64,000 nucleotides of DNA, taken from Dyella silvae. Its GTDB lineage: Bacteria > Pseudomonadota > Gammaproteobacteria > Xanthomonadales > Rhodanobacteraceae. The stretch lies in contig NZ_JAPJBQ010000001.1 of assembly GCF_026421305.1 (NCBI RefSeq), positions 310,001-374,000 of the forward strand, read 5' to 3'. The notes beneath the pieces are model-generated. The model ran no database searches and was not told the DNA's origin. It saw nothing but the letters and a program-made list of their open reading frames with translations. The first letter of the stretch is position 1, and every line of letters begins with the position of its first letter. Below are positions 6,836-53,659 of this stretch, one piece after another. The position numbers and the translations under genes are program-made.

Positions 6836-7209
6836 TGTCCGGCAACCACCATTCCCACGACGCCCACCATGGCGCCGAGCATGCTGATCACGGCAGCACC
6901 AAGTCCTATGTCGTCGGCTTCGTGCTGTCGGTAGTGCTGACGCTGGCGTCCTTCGGTGTGGTCATGAGCGGCAAGGTTCCGCACGACCTGATGATGCCGG
7001 GCATCATCGTGTTCGGTGTGGCCCAGCTCATCGTCCAGCTGAAGTATTTCTTGCATATGGGTCTGTCGCCGTCCCAGCGCAGCAATTTCGCCATCATGCT
7101 GTTCACTCTGCTGATCCTGGCCATCGTGGTGGTCGGCTCGCTGTGGGTGATGCACAACATGAACGCGAACATGATGCATCCGACCTCCCAGATGATGCCG
7201 GTGGAGTAA
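6835..7209 (+). CDS. cyoD: cytochrome bo3 ubiquinol oxidase subunit IV
   Basis: Small three-helix subunit IV (124 residues, normal size), needed for assembly of the Cu-B site. The start is ATG at 6835, which overlaps the cyoC stop; a longer upstream reading would begin inside cyoC. The first 25 residues are again His-rich (NHHSHDAHHGAEHADH), a feature shared with the ends of CyoA and CyoC. Helices are at about 29-49, 55-75 and 88-108. Last gene of the operon: cyoE (haem O synthase) does not follow, and a strong terminator lies 21 bp downstream. Confidence 0.94.
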   Translation: MSGNHHSHDAHHGAEHADHGSTKSYVVGFVLSVVLTLASFGVVMSGKVPHDLMMPGIIVFGVAQLIVQLKYFLHMGLSPSQRSNFAIMLFTLLILAIVVVGSLWVMHNMNANMMHPTSQMMPVE

Positions 7210-7230
7210 GCCCAGTTCTGGGTTGGAGCG

Positions 7231-7262
7231 ACAAAGGCGCCTGCGGGCGCCTTTGTTTTTTC
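7231..7262 (+). terminator. intrinsic terminator of cyoABCD
   Basis: AAAGGCGCC-TGCG-GGCGCCTTT stem followed by GTTTTTT, starting 21 bp after the cyoD stop. Confidence 0.9.
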
Positions 7263-7309
7263 GGATCGGGGGCGGCGTCGCGGCGGCTTTGGACTTCGAT
7301 TCTCACGCT

Positions 7310-7337
7310 CGTCATTCCGGCCTACGCCGGAATGACG
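7310..7337. repeat. dispersed palindrome (CGTCATTCCGGC type)
   Basis: Perfect 12-bp arms CGTCATTCCGGC and GCCGGAATGACG around CTAC. The same family, in its CCCGG form, makes the long hairpin at 63783-63894. Located between the cyo terminator and pyrG. Confidence 0.7.
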
Positions 7338-7394
7338 GCGGGGGATAGGTGGGGTGCGCGGGAGCGGGCGACGGGCCTTCGCCAGGGCCCCTAA

Positions 7395-11392
<3,998 letters not shown>

Positions 11393-48474: not shown

Positions 48475-49443
48475 CTAGGCCGCCAGCTTGTGCGCGTAAT
48501 ACGGTCGCGCCCGGTCATCCAGAATGGCGTACTGCGCTTCCAGATTACTCGGATCAGGACTGAGCCATGGATCGATGTGCTCTGGCTTGATGGGAATAAT
48601 GCAGCGGTCGTGACCTGCTTCGATCACTTCGGGCGGCGGCTCGTCGGTGATGGCGGCAAAGGAGAACAGGTCGGTGCCGTGGTCACCATGTGGTGACATG
48701 TTCCATAAGCAAGCGACGAGCATTTCTTGCGGCGGCTGCGGATCGAATTCGAGGATGACGTTTTCTTCTTCCTCGCCGGGGCGGAGCTCTCTGCCTTCCA
48801 TCTTGTGTCGGGAGACGTTCTCGTAGAACTTCGTCACGATCATGATGCCGTGATGGTGGCCAAAGAGCTTGCCCCATGTCTCTTCGAGCTTGTCGCGTCG
48901 CGCGTTATAGGTGCCCGGATATTTTCGCTCGAGCTTTTCGTCCCAGCCGGGCAGGCGGCATTGGTAGCGCATGGGGACCACGATGCGCTGGCCGTCTTTC
49001 TCGATCATCACCGGGGCATAGCTGCCCGGGTAGATGCGCGAGTCGTCAGGTTCTGGCTCGCGGCGTAAGAGGTCGTCGAGGTTGCGCTCGGCGGCTTTGA
49101 TTTTCTTCTTGGCTATGCGCTGGTCTTCGGCGGCTTTCTTGGTGGGCTTGGGGCTGGCCAGTACGGCTTCGGCCTTGGCGAGCCGTTCGGTTTGGGCGGC
49201 ATGCTCAGCCTTGAGTTTCTCCTCAAGTTCGCGATCGCCCTCAGCGACTATCTTGGCGAGTTCAAATCCTTCCTCGCCGTGAGGTTTGCGGAATGCCTCG
49301 CGCATGGCCTTGGGAATCTTGGTCCAGCCGCCGTCTTTGCGCTTCTCCCAGAACAGCTCAACGAATCGTTTGAGGCTGATGATGGCGCCGTACGTACGGA
49401 CGAACTTGTCGTAGTCGGCTTCGATCTGAGCGGAGTAGCACAT
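48475..49443 (-). CDS. divergent SRAP (HMCES/YedK-like) abasic-site crosslinking protein
   Basis: SRAP proteins form a covalent link to abasic sites in single-stranded DNA through Cys2. Here M1-C2 (MCYSAQ) is present, as are the Asn of TYNARRDKLEETW (about 192-204) and the His of AGHDRCIIPIKPEHID (about 278-293), the positions of the family's catalytic Asn/Glu and His. At 322 residues it is longer than YedK (about 220): residues about 60-130 form a charged coiled-coil insertion (ELEEKLKAEHAAQTERLAKAEAVL). The protein is thus an unusual SRAP branch. The ATG is immediately followed by the Cys, which fixes the start. Confidence 0.82.
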   Translation of the reverse strand: MCYSAQIEADYDKFVRTYGAIISLKRFVELFWEKRKDGGWTKIPKAMREAFRKPHGEEGFELAKIVAEGDRELEEKLKAEHAAQTERLAKAEAVLASPKPTKKAAEDQRIAKKKIKAAERNLDDLLRREPEPDDSRIYPGSYAPVMIEKDGQRIVVPMRYQCRLPGWDEKLERKYPGTYNARRDKLEETWGKLFGHHHGIMIVTKFYENVSRHKMEGRELRPGEEEENVILEFDPQPPQEMLVACLWNMSPHGDHGTDLFSFAAITDEPPPEVIEAGHDRCIIPIKPEHIDPWLSPDPSNLEAQYAILDDRARPYYAHKLAA

Positions 49444-49690: not shown

Positions 49691-50083
49691 CTAGAACCCC
49701 GTAGCGACGTCAATGATGACTCCGTTGGATATCAACGTGAGATAGAACTGACCGCCTTCGGCGCGCACCCAGCGATAACCAGGCTCAGGGCGACGCAGGT
49801 GATAGCGATCATAGTCCGTTACGTAGTACTCGCGTCCGTAGTATTGGTCCGGCAGGCGATCACCTTTCTTGTACCAGCCCTTGTGCTCGCCATTGTCGTG
49901 GCGCCCTTCGTCCTTTGGGTTGTGACCGTGGTCGTCGCGATCTGCATGCTTGTCGTAGCCGTGGTCGTCGCGATCTCCATGCTTGTCGTAGCCATGGTCG
50001 TGCTCATCTTGCGGCGAGGCTACGGTCAGTCCACTGCTGGCAAGCAAGACTGCCGCGATGGCAAAGGAAAGAAAGCGTTTCAT
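49691..50083 (-). CDS. RcnB-family periplasmic protein with a His/Asp repeat
   Basis: 130 residues. Sec signal MKRFLSFAIAAVLLASSGLTVAS (cleavage about 23). A repeated metal-binding-like segment follows, units HGYDKHGDRDD and HGYDKHADRDD (about 31-52), then GHNPKDEGRHDN. The C-terminal RcnB domain is GDRLPDQYYGREYYVTDYDRYHLRRPEPGYRWVRAEGGQFYLTLISNGVIIDV. RcnB affects nickel/cobalt efflux in E. coli; the His-rich repeat fits metal handling. Ribosome site AAGGAGG precedes the ATG. Confidence 0.87.
   Translation of the reverse strand: MKRFLSFAIAAVLLASSGLTVASPQDEHDHGYDKHGDRDDHGYDKHADRDDHGHNPKDEGRHDNGEHKGWYKKGDRLPDQYYGREYYVTDYDRYHLRRPEPGYRWVRAEGGQFYLTLISNGVIIDVATGF
49931..49996. repeat. 33-bp tandem repeat inside the RcnB-like gene
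   Basis: Two nearly identical 33-bp units (49931-49963 and 49964-49996), encoding HGYDKH(A/G)DRDD. An in-frame number change would lengthen or shorten the metal-binding segment. Confidence 0.85.
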
Positions 50084-50530
50084 ATGGCCTCCTTACTTTG
50101 AGGTGGAACATTTCATGGGCGTCGCAAGGTACTTGCGAAGTTCCTGCCCAAACGCCCACGACCCGGAGGAACAACATGGCACAAAAACACGTGCCCGCGC
50201 CGGTGTTCAAGGCGGGCATTTAGGAACGAGAAAGTGTGTTTCTGTTCAGGTCGGCGCGCGTTATGGCGGCTTGGCCGCGGTGGGGAAGGGGTGCTTGGGT
50301 CCATGAGGATAAGCATGGGAGATCACGCCAAGGACACGATGGTTCACAGGAGATGGCTAAGGTTTCTTACGGTCAGTCCTTTGCCAGTCACTGTCATGTA
50401 TTCATTTCGCCGCCGCACGTCACCTTTCCATCAGCAAAAAAAAGCCCGGAGTCATCCGGGCTTTTTTGTGCGCTTGCTCTGGTGAAGCGATAACTGCATC
50501 ACCGGAGTAAGTCTAAATCGATCCCTGGAT
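50084..50530. other. 447-bp gap between the RcnB gene and the borosin-like cluster
   Basis: Contains a 15-codon frame at 50176-50223 behind a strong GGAGGAAC ribosome site (peptide MAQKHVPAPVFKAGI), of unknown meaning, and the bidirectional terminator at 50437-50467. Two plus-strand frames of about 83 codons (50234-50485 and 50236-50493) overlap in different registers and do not look real. Confidence 0.4.
50437..50467 (-). terminator. terminator of the borosin-like cluster
   Basis: AAAAAAGCCCGGA-GTCA-TCCGGGCTTTTTT hairpin, with a nine-T run on the minus-strand side and six T's on the plus-strand side. It lies 64 bp after the minus-strand precursor gene. Confidence 0.85.
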
Positions 50531-50749
50531 TCAGAGCATGATCGGGAACGTCTGAGAACTTTGCGTCACGTGGTCAAGCCTGTAGTCAAACTCTTTCTTC
50601 AGGTGGGCCGAATCGCCCGTCGCGGCGGCAGCAGTCAATGCGTGCGACGCCTTTGCGCGCTCAAGAACAGCAGCCAGTGCGTCAGCGGTTGCATGACGCA
50701 GCGAGGCATCGCGGCCGATCGCTTCCAGCAGTTCAATGGTGTCAGCCAT
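50531..50749 (-). CDS. putative split-borosin precursor peptide A1
   Basis: 72-residue peptide. Residues 3-54 form a helical leader, DTIELLEAIGRDASLRHATADALAAVLERAKASHALTAAAATGDSAHLKKEF in three pieces: IELLEAIGRDASL (5-17), ALAAVLERA (24-32) and AATGDSAHLKKEF (42-54). This resembles the borosin-binding domain of SonA-type precursors (hydrophobic pairs, GxDAxL, then TGDxxxLK), from memory of the family. The C-terminal tail RLDHVTQSSQTFPIML (57-72) would be the core to be N-methylated. A paralogue of the leader is in the gene at 51826. Ribosome site AAGGAG precedes ATG 50749. Last gene of the cluster. Confidence 0.65.
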   Translation of the reverse strand: MADTIELLEAIGRDASLRHATADALAAVLERAKASHALTAAAATGDSAHLKKEFDYRLDHVTQSSQTFPIML

Positions 50750-50862
50750 TTACATCTCCTTGTGTGCTTGTTCGTGGATGGATTGAGCGTCTCGCACTCG
50801 GCGCTTGACGCCGCCGTTACATAACACAGGCGCTTGTCGATTCGCCTGTGCCTCGGCTTCGC

Positions 50863-51699
50863 TTACGCCGGAACGGGAGCTTTGTAGATTTTGTCCAGCG
50901 CTTCGACTTGCCGGATGAAATCTTCGTCGCGCTCCACGGCCTTGGCCGGCGGCAGCACTACCGTCTCTTCGGGGGTCATGGGCGTCGTTGGCAGGTCGCG
51001 AAGCGCAACCTTCCTGATTCGTGGCCTTTCTACTGGAAGCGTCGCCGCACGGTAGATGGTGACCTGATGCTCCAGCGGATAATCCCGGCTTAGCCGGTCG
51101 ACCAGCAGTTGCCGATACGCTGCGGGCGCGTCGGATCGGGAGACGGACGGGATGCCTAACATGGCGACTTGCCACAAGACCAAATGGGCCGTTGGATCCA
51201 CCTGTCGCTTGCAGAGGACAAACTGGTTGACTTCGAAGTGCTGGCAGCCGTGGCTGCCGGGGTCGATGCCGAGGTCGGCGTAGAGGCAGTCTTCCGCGGA
51301 TATGCCCGGCTCCATGTGTGCCTGGTAGCCTTCCGCGCGCGCCACCTCGATCACCTTGTGGGGAGACCATGCGAAGACACCGGGATGCCCGTAAAACACG
51401 CCGCATACTTTCTTGCCTGCGCGGACCTCGGCCATCATGAGGTCAACCCACTCCTGATAGGTGTCCGAGCGTGGCTTTCCTTCACCGTAATAGGGTTGAA
51501 GGCTGCGAACATCGCCGTGCATTCGCTGAAGCCACTTCTCCACCACCGCATCGGATACGCCGGCAAACACGACATCGGCCTGCTCGATATGACTGCGTGC
51601 CAGTGGTGTCAGGTGGGAGCCCAGCGTCATGCCCAGACCGACGCAGGCGATGCTGCCCCGGGCGTTTCCTTCCGATGGAATCGACAAGCTCGCGACCAT
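50863..51699 (-). CDS. split-borosin alpha-N-methyltransferase (OphMA/SonM type)
   Basis: 278-residue tetrapyrrole-methylase-fold enzyme that should add S-adenosylmethionine-derived methyl groups to backbone amides of a separate precursor. Motifs: GSIACVGLGMTLGSHLTPLARSHIEQADVVF (15-45), LQPYYGEGKPRSDTYQEWVDLMM (67-89) with Tyr70/Tyr71, Arg77 and Tyr81 at the places of the OphMA catalytic Tyr/Arg set, the SAM loop FYGHPGVFAW (102-111), and EPGISAEDCLYADLGIDPGSHGCQHFEVNQFVL. The last matches the borosin branch rather than cobalamin or sirohaem methylases. The clasp and fused core of fungal OphMA are absent, so the substrate is in trans. The start at 51699 has AGGGG upstream; longer frames are less likely. 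Confidence 0.85.
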   Translation of the reverse strand: MVASLSIPSEGNARGSIACVGLGMTLGSHLTPLARSHIEQADVVFAGVSDAVVEKWLQRMHGDVRSLQPYYGEGKPRSDTYQEWVDLMMAEVRAGKKVCGVFYGHPGVFAWSPHKVIEVARAEGYQAHMEPGISAEDCLYADLGIDPGSHGCQHFEVNQFVLCKRQVDPTAHLVLWQVAMLGIPSVSRSDAPAAYRQLLVDRLSRDYPLEHQVTIYRAATLPVERPRIRKVALRDLPTTPMTPEETVVLPPAKAVERDEDFIRQVEALDKIYKAPVPA

Positions 51700-51767
51700 G
51701 CACTTCCCCTGGATGAATGGAGCGCAGAGGATGCCGGTAGCCATGCCTTGCTGGCAATATGGCTGAG

Positions 51768-51803
51768 ATGACCGGGCCAGGCGATTCAACGTGGCCCGGT
51801 CAT
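51768..51803. promoter_or_regulatory. 12-bp hairpin between precursor A2 and methyltransferase genes
   Basis: ATGACCGGGCCA and TGGCCCGGTCAT form a perfect stem with a 12-nt loop in the 126-bp spacer. There is no T tract on the minus strand, so it may be an attenuator or a 3'-end stabiliser rather than a full terminator. Confidence 0.5.
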
Positions 51804-51825
51804 TAACACGATGGCTTTCCCTGCG

Positions 51826-52239
51826 TCAGGTCTGGACGCAGCAGAACGCCGGATCAACCTGCGGTGCCAACGGTCCCTGGCGAAGGAGTTGCTCCGACAG
51901 CCTGGTGCTATCTCCGCTCATCACGGCGTGGGTCAGCGCGCTTGAGGCATTTGCGCGTTCCAGCATGTGAACCAGTTCCGTGGCCGTCGCGTAGCGCAGT
52001 GATGCATTGCTGCCAATAGCTTCCAGCAGGTCGATGCTATCGGCCGATTCGGAGGCGGTGCCTTGGCGGCTATCGCGGGAAGGGGCAACTTGCTGACCCT
52101 CTGCCATGGGTATCACGATCCTGTCTGGAGCCGCCGCCCCGAAGGCATGGTCCGCACTGTAGTGAGCGGACGCGGCCGCATCCGAAGCAACAATGGCCAG
52201 TACCGCGGCGGCGAGCGTGTTCACCGATGTTCGTTTCAT
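51826..52239 (-). CDS. putative split-borosin precursor A2 with an N-terminal signal peptide
   Basis: 137 residues. N-terminus MKRTSVNTLAAAVLAIVASDAAASA is a Sec signal with cleavage expected after about residue 25. A low-complexity linker follows (26-66). Residues 67-118 are clearly homologous to the leader of A1: DSIDLLEAIGSNASLRYATATELVHMLERANASSAL and AVMSGDSTRLSEQL. The tail LRQGPLAPQVDPAFCCVQT (119-137) is unrelated to the A1 tail and carries a Cys pair. It is either an exported precursor, an exported immunity or carrier protein, or a paralogue not modified by the methyltransferase. ATG 52239 has GGAG upstream. First gene of the cluster. Confidence 0.6.
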   Translation of the reverse strand: MKRTSVNTLAAAVLAIVASDAAASAHYSADHAFGAAAPDRIVIPMAEGQQVAPSRDSRQGTASESADSIDLLEAIGSNASLRYATATELVHMLERANASSALTHAVMSGDSTRLSEQLLRQGPLAPQVDPAFCCVQT

Positions 52240-52264
52240 AGAAAACTCCGTGTGGTGAAAGCCC

Positions 52265-52294
52265 AGTCTATGGCCATCCCGAAAAGGGTGCCAA
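52265..52294 (-). promoter_or_regulatory. candidate sigma-70 promoter of the borosin-like cluster
   Basis: On the minus strand: TTGGCA (52294-52289), 18-bp spacer, TAGACT (52270-52265). Transcription would begin about 20 nt before ATG 52239, leaving a short leader with the GGAG site. Confidence 0.5.
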
Positions 52295-52399: not shown

Positions 52400-53446
52400 T
52401 CACTTGCTGTTGGTATCTGCAGTCGCGCGAGTGCGGTAGAGCAGCAGATGATTCGTTCCTGATTCGGATAACCAGAGTTCCCCCGCGCGCCCCATCATCT
52501 GGCGAACGTTTGCGTGTTCGCGTGGCAGCGTCATCACGTCGAAATGTTCGGTGCGCGGGTCGAAGCGCACCAGCGCATTGGCGCTCCATTCGCTGAGCCA
52601 GACTACGTCCTTGTCGTCGACGAATATGGCGTAGGCGTGAGGGTTGTTGCCTGGTAGCGTCCACTCGCGCCATTGATGTTTCGCAGGGTCGAACATGCCG
52701 ACCTTGCCGGCGGTCCATTCGCTGATCCATACGCGACCCTTCGAGTCGGACCACGCGCGACGCGCGCCCTGATTCGGTGTGGGAGGTTCAATGACTTGTG
52801 CAGCGCCGCTCGCCGGGTCGATGCGGCCGAGGTAGTTGCCCGCCAGTGATGCGTAATACACGCTCCCATCAGGCGTGACGCAGATGCCATAAGGTCCGCG
52901 TCCACGTGGCGCATCGAAAACGCGCATGTGCGTGCTCGCCGGATCGAGCTCGCCATAGATGCCGTTCTGTCCGGTGAACCAGACGTGCCCATGCTTGTCG
53001 AAGACGGCCGTGTTGAGATTGGCGTCCTTTCGATCCTTCGGTAGTGGAAAGCGCGTGACGGCTAGTGTTTTTGAGTCGACGCGCACGATTGCGTTAAGGC
53101 CGCCATCGGTGATCCAGGCCGCGCGATCCGGGCCGACGATCACGCCGTGTGGTGCAGATCCTTCGCCAAGCGGAATCCAGTCGGCTTTGCCATCACGCGG
53201 GTTTAGCCGTCCCACTGCGCCGCGGGCTTGCGCGGTGTACCAGACGGTGCCATCAGGAGAAGGTGCGACATCGTGCGGCGCTGCGCCTGCAGGGACCGCG
53301 AACGTCTCGAAACTCGGAGATGTGGTCTGCCCGTGGCCCGTGATGGGCAGGGTGCTCGATAGCGCCAACGCAAATAGCATGGCGAGTGGGGTGCCGAGCT
53401 TGCTCTTGGCTGGTGCGCCAAGTCTCGTACTTACGATTTTCGGCAT
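52400..53446 (-). CDS. exported beta-propeller, virginiamycin B lyase-like (Vgb family)
   Basis: 348 residues. Sec signal (LAMLFALALSSTLPITGHGQ, about 19-38), then repeated propeller blades with the Vgb pattern: FAVPAGAAPHDVAPSPDGTVWYTAQARGAVGRLNPRDG, APHGVIVGPDRAAWITDGGLNAIVRVD and GPYGICVTPDGSVYYASLAGNYLGRIDP. Vgb lyases keep a His near HGxxxxxDGxxWFTE-like turns; here the turns vary and lyase activity is not certain. GCGGGAGGC is the ribosome site before ATG 53446. Same strand as the borosin-like cluster, 160 bp upstream, but the cluster has its own promoter. Confidence 0.78.
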   Translation of the reverse strand: MPKIVSTRLGAPAKSKLGTPLAMLFALALSSTLPITGHGQTTSPSFETFAVPAGAAPHDVAPSPDGTVWYTAQARGAVGRLNPRDGKADWIPLGEGSAPHGVIVGPDRAAWITDGGLNAIVRVDSKTLAVTRFPLPKDRKDANLNTAVFDKHGHVWFTGQNGIYGELDPASTHMRVFDAPRGRGPYGICVTPDGSVYYASLAGNYLGRIDPASGAAQVIEPPTPNQGARRAWSDSKGRVWISEWTAGKVGMFDPAKHQWREWTLPGNNPHAYAIFVDDKDVVWLSEWSANALVRFDPRTEHFDVMTLPREHANVRQMMGRAGELWLSESGTNHLLLYRTRATADTNSK

Positions 53447-53659
53447 GGCCGCCTCCCGCTCAGGATGAGGTTCAAAAGGCTGCAAGCCGCCACATTGTGG
53501 CACCGATCCAGAGTCTCGGGAGAGGTTTCGGCATCATGTGACGCTGCCGTAGCGCATGCCCTAATCAGAGATGCGCCGCTGCGTCCATGATCTATTTCCT
53601 TGCTCGCGGAGCAAGGCATTCGCAGCATGCAGCGATTCGAACACTTGGGGAGTCAGCGC

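Follow-up and report, generated by a model that had tools for sequence, protein, structure and literature searches.

What does a small gene cluster in the genome of Dyella silvae make, and to what end, when it sets a methyltransferase between two short genes with a common domain and different tails? The cluster lies in a 64,000-nucleotide stretch of this genome, hereafter the window, and all three genes are read on the minus strand, in the order of a gene for a 137-residue protein (51826..52239), a gene for a 278-residue methyltransferase (50863..51699), a gene for a 72-residue protein (50531..50749) and a hairpin terminator. The initial annotation had proposed a split borosin cluster here, and this reading is supported by a borosin enzyme, a binding domain linked to that of the borosin precursor SonA, separate genes, and a precursor-like open reading frame (ORF) at 78 of 80 related loci. 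At the level of sequence the conclusion holds: the three genes form a new split borosin locus, in a Dyella-like genome of the Rhodanobacteraceae. Of greatest interest is a result from beyond the window: across the order, precursors of this kind are tied to membrane synthases of cyclic di-GMP (c-di-GMP). A literature search found no paper that pairs 'borosin' with 'diguanylate', and surveys may already mention the cyclase link or the precursor arrays described below.

Judged by its sequence, the enzyme is a borosin-type alpha-N-methyltransferase with its catalytic residues kept. Its closest relatives of solved structure are SonM (PDB 7LTC; 242.8 bits, E 5.8e-71), to the searched part of which it is 47% identical, and the OphMA-type enzymes (165-178 bits). 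The OphMA/SonM motifs and residue numbers that had been assigned to it are confirmed, Y71, R77 and Y81 aligning with Y58, R67 and Y71 of SonM; the SonM study (PMC8429565) reports that the mutants Y58F, R67K and Y71F lower kcat 15-, 43- and 84-fold.

Over a stretch of 52 residues the two small proteins are 59.6% identical (E 3e-13), and their tails then differ, just as the initial annotation had described. The 72-residue protein, which ends in ...HVTQSSQTFPIML and whose gene has AAGGAG before its ATG, has 135 homologues at E <= 0.001. The searches against SonM and SonA that had been suggested as a check led directly from the enzyme to SonM; from the precursors, SonA was reached through a bridging profile and not by either the 72- or the 137-residue protein as a single query, and profile A1, built from 26 near relatives, also failed to find it. 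Profile A2, with 27 sequences, of which 22 belong to a second precursor class (MSNVIDFLERMGQDAQLRHA...) and five are window-like, including the 72-residue protein, finds the SonA chains in PDB at E 9.2e-6, ungapped over residues 1-59; SonA was thus reached once the second class had been added. Through this profile the binding domain of the window precursors is linked to that of SonA as its likely homologue, and Pfam gave weak, scattered matches to the precursors, all under cut-off. Since the SonA chain has 71 residues and the window protein 72, residues 62-72 of the latter fall at the position of the SonA core (62-71, methylated at 63 and 65; PMC8429565). The size of about 75 residues given for the small precursors of both type IV pathways (PMC8429565) fits the 72-residue protein but not the 137-residue one.

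Among 90 different window-class precursors, A15, R18 and L29 are invariant, and so are L8, I11 and G12, in a set whose selection pattern itself fixed L8 and I11 and allowed G or A as residue 12. Entropy is 1.6 to 3.6 bits at positions 56-72 and 0 to 3.7 in the binding domain, and the tails follow a loose pattern, with P62 in 60, Q63 in 59 and Q66 in 49 of the 90. These precursors come in a short shape, which ends soon after the P62-Q63-Q66 pattern, and a long one with an acidic tail; the 72- and the 137-residue protein both belong to the short type. In the second class (L098-L109, L158 and similar loci, by our numbering) the binding domain is often followed by a pair of cysteines with hydrophobic residues (NLCCLMLPAKE, FCCLINPAK) and by acidic tails, and a cysteine pair is also present in the tail of the 137-residue protein (FCCVQT). 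Other tails consist of runs of Lys/Pro/Ala repeats (KKAPAKKKPAKK...) resembling those of histone H1 (L116, L118, L121, L131 and L133), and at L126 (7328-7777) the unit GGDKDEEEIRxxA recurs about four times, so that several cores in one protein are possible.

The locus is closest in design to SonM/SonA of Shewanella oneidensis, a type IV split borosin (PDB 7LTC; PMC8429565) that also has a separate methyltransferase and small precursor. The two systems are alike in their catalytic residues, in the roughly equal length of the precursor and in a homologous binding domain; unlike SonM/SonA, the window has two precursors that flank the enzyme, one of them with 137 residues and a signal-like start, and its tail sequences are different. 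The fused fungal borosins (OphMA, dbOphMA, MroMA) possess a homologous methyltransferase (165-178 bits) but hold enzyme and core in one protein, whereas in the window there are three separate ORFs, each with its own ribosome site (for the methyltransferase, an ATG with AGGGGAAG ahead of it), and enzyme and precursor genes are therefore separate. The enzyme gene does lie, as had been noted, between two small genes of the same strand.

Relatives of the enzyme (E <= 1e-15) occur in 162 of the 233 genomes of the family, and the best 80 of 142 confirmed named loci with such a relative were kept for comparison. The two of these without a same-strand precursor-like ORF, L093 and L115, stop with the enzyme itself. 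Behind the precursor, 73 of the 80 have a diguanylate cyclase of about 600 residues (66 matches of at least 500 bits, six cut by the end of the contig and one in two frames, L110); it is absent from complete surroundings at L055, L056, L057 and L082, and the contigs of L080, L093 and L115 are too short. When the 233 genomes were scored for a cyclase at E <= 1e-70, with five candidates per genome and counts from the listed matches, 157 had both enzyme and cyclase, five the enzyme only (one genus, with distant enzymes), one the cyclase only and 70 neither (Fisher p 3e-52, kinship ignored). Of the 60 best cyclase hits in the family, 58 lay at most 4 kb from an enzyme gene, with a median gap of 452 bases, and the other two (L159, L187) have a precursor ORF just before them.

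Precursor and cyclase are also duplicated as a unit (L162, L119, L092): L162 has one enzyme, three precursor-cyclase pairs and two further cyclases, and at the others methyltransferase, precursor and cyclase follow one another as MpDpD or MpDMpD. At two loci (L155, 5090-9985, in G111; L156, 3846-7082, in G119) a single methyltransferase gene precedes an array of precursor ORFs, 12 at L155 and 7 at L156, and the array is closed by one cyclase. Their binding domains are near-constant and their tails varied (…PQVIQSYS, …PQISQSFFDRP, …PQATQSFCSSELS), the last precursor being long and acidic; one of the 12 ORFs at L155 is without its first half, and one precursor of that array is identical to P0087, recorded for Luteibacter rhizovicinus DSM 16549. 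When SonM was searched against 369 genomes of the class, seven genomes outside the family matched. Membrane TPR sensors stand beside the enzyme at two of these distant loci. At one (L177, 5788-11793) a TPR hybrid histidine kinase and a TPR-GGDEF protein adjoin the SonM-like enzyme, which is accompanied by a SonA-like small protein; at another (L178, 7796-12131) a TPR hybrid histidine kinase adjoins the enzyme, and a 67-residue ORF is SonA-like by eye only. At L179-L183 no cyclase of the subfamily stands beside the enzyme, among neighbours that were not run through Pfam, and at L182 a GGDEF-type match lies some 6 kb off.

Membrane diguanylate cyclases with TPR input are a general class, and the cyclases of these relatives resemble it in their signal-like start, TPR region, single membrane span and GGEEF domain; what sets them apart from that class is that they form a subfamily tied to borosin precursors. 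Pfam recognises GGDEF at 2e-37 to 3e-40 in all four cyclases tested, and GGEEF is read in all 80 different cyclases examined. Of 107 cyclase ORFs that score 600 bits or more, with some genes counted twice, 105 have a single hydrophobic span ahead of GGDEF. An N-terminal hydrophobic stretch passes the threshold in 49 of the 107, and further starts that were inspected look signal-like by eye. With one span ahead of GGDEF and such N-terminal starts, the TPR region is likely to be periplasmic.

For covariation, we compared distances over 80 enzyme-precursor-cyclase sets (of 83). With enzyme, GGDEF and binding-domain distances removed, the core correlates with the TPR region over all sets at r 0.22 (p 0.0005), and it shows no correlation with GGDEF (r -0.001, p 0.51). 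In the precursor class with 44 sets, the core gives 0.32 (p 0.0005) with the TPR region, 0.10 (p 0.08) with GGDEF and -0.02 (p 0.56) with the enzyme; in the class with 36 sets, the corresponding values are 0.17 (p 0.0065), -0.05 (p 0.75) and 0.24 (p 0.001). Core and binding domain correlate at 0.22 over all sets, and binding domain and TPR region at 0.44, more strongly than core and TPR region, with 0.33 and 0.37 within the classes. The permutations behind these values ignore kinship, and the TPR part, which is longer and more divergent than GGDEF, tracks recombination history better. The pattern is compatible with ligand and receptor, and is no proof of them.

The window's own locus occupies a particular place among these relatives. 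In a quick tree of 88 rows, its enzyme falls into a clade (support 99) with L055-L057, from two Dyella species and [Pseudomonas] boreopolis. This clade is nested inside relatives that bear the cyclase; loss of the cyclase would be the simplest reading. The window, L055 and L057 have no common neighbour beyond enzyme and precursor (ORFs of at least 110 residues, E <= 1e-6); L056 was in effect outside this comparison, an overlapping ORF having taken the place of its enzyme frame. The precursor of L057 is immediately followed by an ORF (7202-8473) that by eye resembles a phage-type integrase, so the cassette may move. The window genome also has a second locus, L035, which is canonical, with an enzyme, two precursors and a cyclase, and this cyclase is the genome's only match at E 1e-70 among the five candidates scored.

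From these observations we envision the following. The enzyme would dock on the helical binding domain of each small protein, as SonM does on SonA, and methylate backbone amides of the C-terminal tail, in the SonA register at about residues 62-72 of the shorter protein and the matching residues 126-137 of the longer one. The 137-residue precursor would cross the inner membrane by means of its N-terminal signal, giving at least one periplasmic product. With the operon of methyltransferase, precursor and TPR/GGEEF cyclase present in 73 of the 80 loci and at a second place in the window genome, the window locus is probably a derived form of it. In the canonical operon, the methylated peptide would probably be the ligand of the TPR sensor and tune c-di-GMP; the cyclase-less window locus could, more speculatively, act in trans on other sensors or on other cells. 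That a split borosin with methylated tails and an exported 137-residue product descends in this way from a cyclase operon with a peptide-sensing TPR region is, taken as a whole, the explanation we consider likely.

Several observations beyond the failed direct searches for SonA weigh against it. Neither the window nor its three nearest relatives have an adjoining cyclase, and four weaker or separate cyclases of the subfamily (L185, L186, L188, L189) stand alone. TPR_14 passes the Pfam cut-off in just two of the four cyclases tested (4e-7, 2e-5), falls just short of it in the third (3e-4) and gives way to a marginal TPR match (0.01) in the fourth; in the window genome's own cyclase, which aligns with the family profile almost from end to end (753 bits), GGDEF is seen and no TPR repeats are. 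The core also covaries with the enzyme over all sets (r 0.175, p 0.0025), and linkage or a shared recombination history of neighbouring genes can mimic covariation. The other precursors examined are without a signal of the kind found in the 137-residue protein by which their products might reach a periplasmic sensor, and the start of that protein is itself not told apart by codon-position GC content from the untranslated sequence upstream (0.68/0.59/0.67 for residues 1-66, 0.64/0.50/0.69 for the rest and 0.66/0.46/0.63 upstream). P0122, on a 632-bp contig, is the sole relative found for this start, a remote one that is similar by eye and less signal-like.

How far the alternatives can account for the same data differs greatly among them. 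The enzyme matches PF00590, a family that spans both the borosin and the tetrapyrrole groups, and could on that ground be a tetrapyrrole-type methylase without relation to borosins, the grouping that the initial annotation had named as fatal to its proposal. However, no NCBIfam tetrapyrrole model scores above 20.9 bits, where the cut-offs range from 163 to 400, and YabN reaches 47.9 against 525, whereas SonM scores 243 bits and leads the matches together with OphMA; with a precursor-like ORF beside nearly every relative as well, we rejected this identity as exceedingly improbable. A closer question is posed by the 137-residue protein, which consists of a signal-peptide-like stretch (residues 1-25), a linker (about 26-64), a SonA-like binding domain (about 65-117) and a tail to ...LAPQVDPAFCCVQT. 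Its first 25 residues have the features of a Sec signal, namely a basic start, the stretch TLAAAVLAIVA (mean hydropathy 2.6) and ASA before HYS at the likely cleavage point, and GGAG lies six bases upstream of its ATG, so that it seems, from sequence, to be a precursor built for export. It could instead be a non-substrate, its duplicated binding domain serving as decoy or regulator or simply decaying, and its signal-like start being a chance frame. The protein is nearly a singleton: a protein search returned just itself and P0122, residues 1-66 have no significant match among the ORFs of 134 loci, and of the matches listed for the 126 of 233 family genomes that have one, most have their first aligned residue within the binding domain or shortly ahead of it; a few weak ones extend beyond this towards the N terminus, several of them running through stop codons. 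Moreover, P0122 has a methionine right before its binding domain, so that a shorter start is possible there, the codon-position values are uninformative, and the isolated SonA binding domain inhibits SonM with a Ki of 3.9 uM (PMC8429565). Against a non-substrate stand the good ribosome site and the signal features themselves, the lack in the window of a start codon just ahead of the binding domain, and a tail that retains the P-Q of other cores at positions 62-63; on balance we think it rather unlikely.

The more serious competitor is that these are ordinary bioactive natural products, directed for example against competitors, and that the cyclase is a regulator of their production or a passenger that senses no peptide, without which the window locus does. 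The known borosins whose activity has been studied are bioactive fungal peptides (PMC8429565); the window clade has enzyme and precursor without cyclase; and the 12 and 7 precursors per cyclase at L155 and L156 look more like a product library than like one ligand per receptor. A regulator or passenger does not readily account for precursor-cyclase pairs that persist without an adjoining enzyme (L159, L187) or multiply as units (L162), nor for a core and binding domain whose variation follows that of the cyclase's sensor region but not that of its catalytic part. We regard this alternative as quite possible, if somewhat short of an even chance. By the wider signalling proposal, the split borosins of the order would be exported, N-methylated ligands of c-di-GMP sensors with periplasmic TPR regions (of TPR histidine kinases at the two distant loci), and the window locus an offshoot that has no sensor but an export signal of its own, and that broadcasts to such sensors or interferes with them; in this full form we offer it tentatively, as a conjecture that may well prove wrong.

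The regulatory elements first predicted for the unit, its own promoter and terminator, fared differently. The terminator at 50437..50467 on the minus strand is convincing, with a strong stem, runs of A and T and a folding z of -5.1 against shuffles for the 101-base stretch 50430-50530, and is absent from the list of a consensus scanner. The promoter at 52294-52265 has no evidence in its favour, as its 9/12 match was found once against 0.8 expected in shuffles. Between the 137-residue gene and the enzyme gene there is a perfect 12-bp inverted repeat (51768..51803; z -3.15 for the folding of 51700-51828), which might be an attenuator or an mRNA-stabilising hairpin and may serve to raise precursor over enzyme. 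It is not a dispersed element: allowing up to 3 mismatches, the genome has this one site only. Neither the repeat nor the signal-like start of the 137-residue protein figures in the initial annotation. The unit is flanked upstream by a Vgb-lyase-like beta-propeller (52400-53503; PF24684, 114.8 bits) and downstream by an RcnB-like small protein (49691-50083; PF11776, 69.4 bits), with an SRAP-type protein further along (48475-49443; PF02586, 49 bits).

If the proposed products are made, the 137-residue protein would represent a natural borosin precursor that carries an export signal of its own, and the arrays of 12 and 7 precursors that share one enzyme would offer naturally occurring substrate sets to those who engineer N-methylated peptides. 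In most of the relatives examined, a similar gene set stands directly before a membrane sensor predicted to make c-di-GMP, a hint that these peptides may serve as signals. An operon of precursor and membrane c-di-GMP synthase that extends across the family would give bacterial borosins a testable function, that of signalling by backbone-N-methylated peptides.

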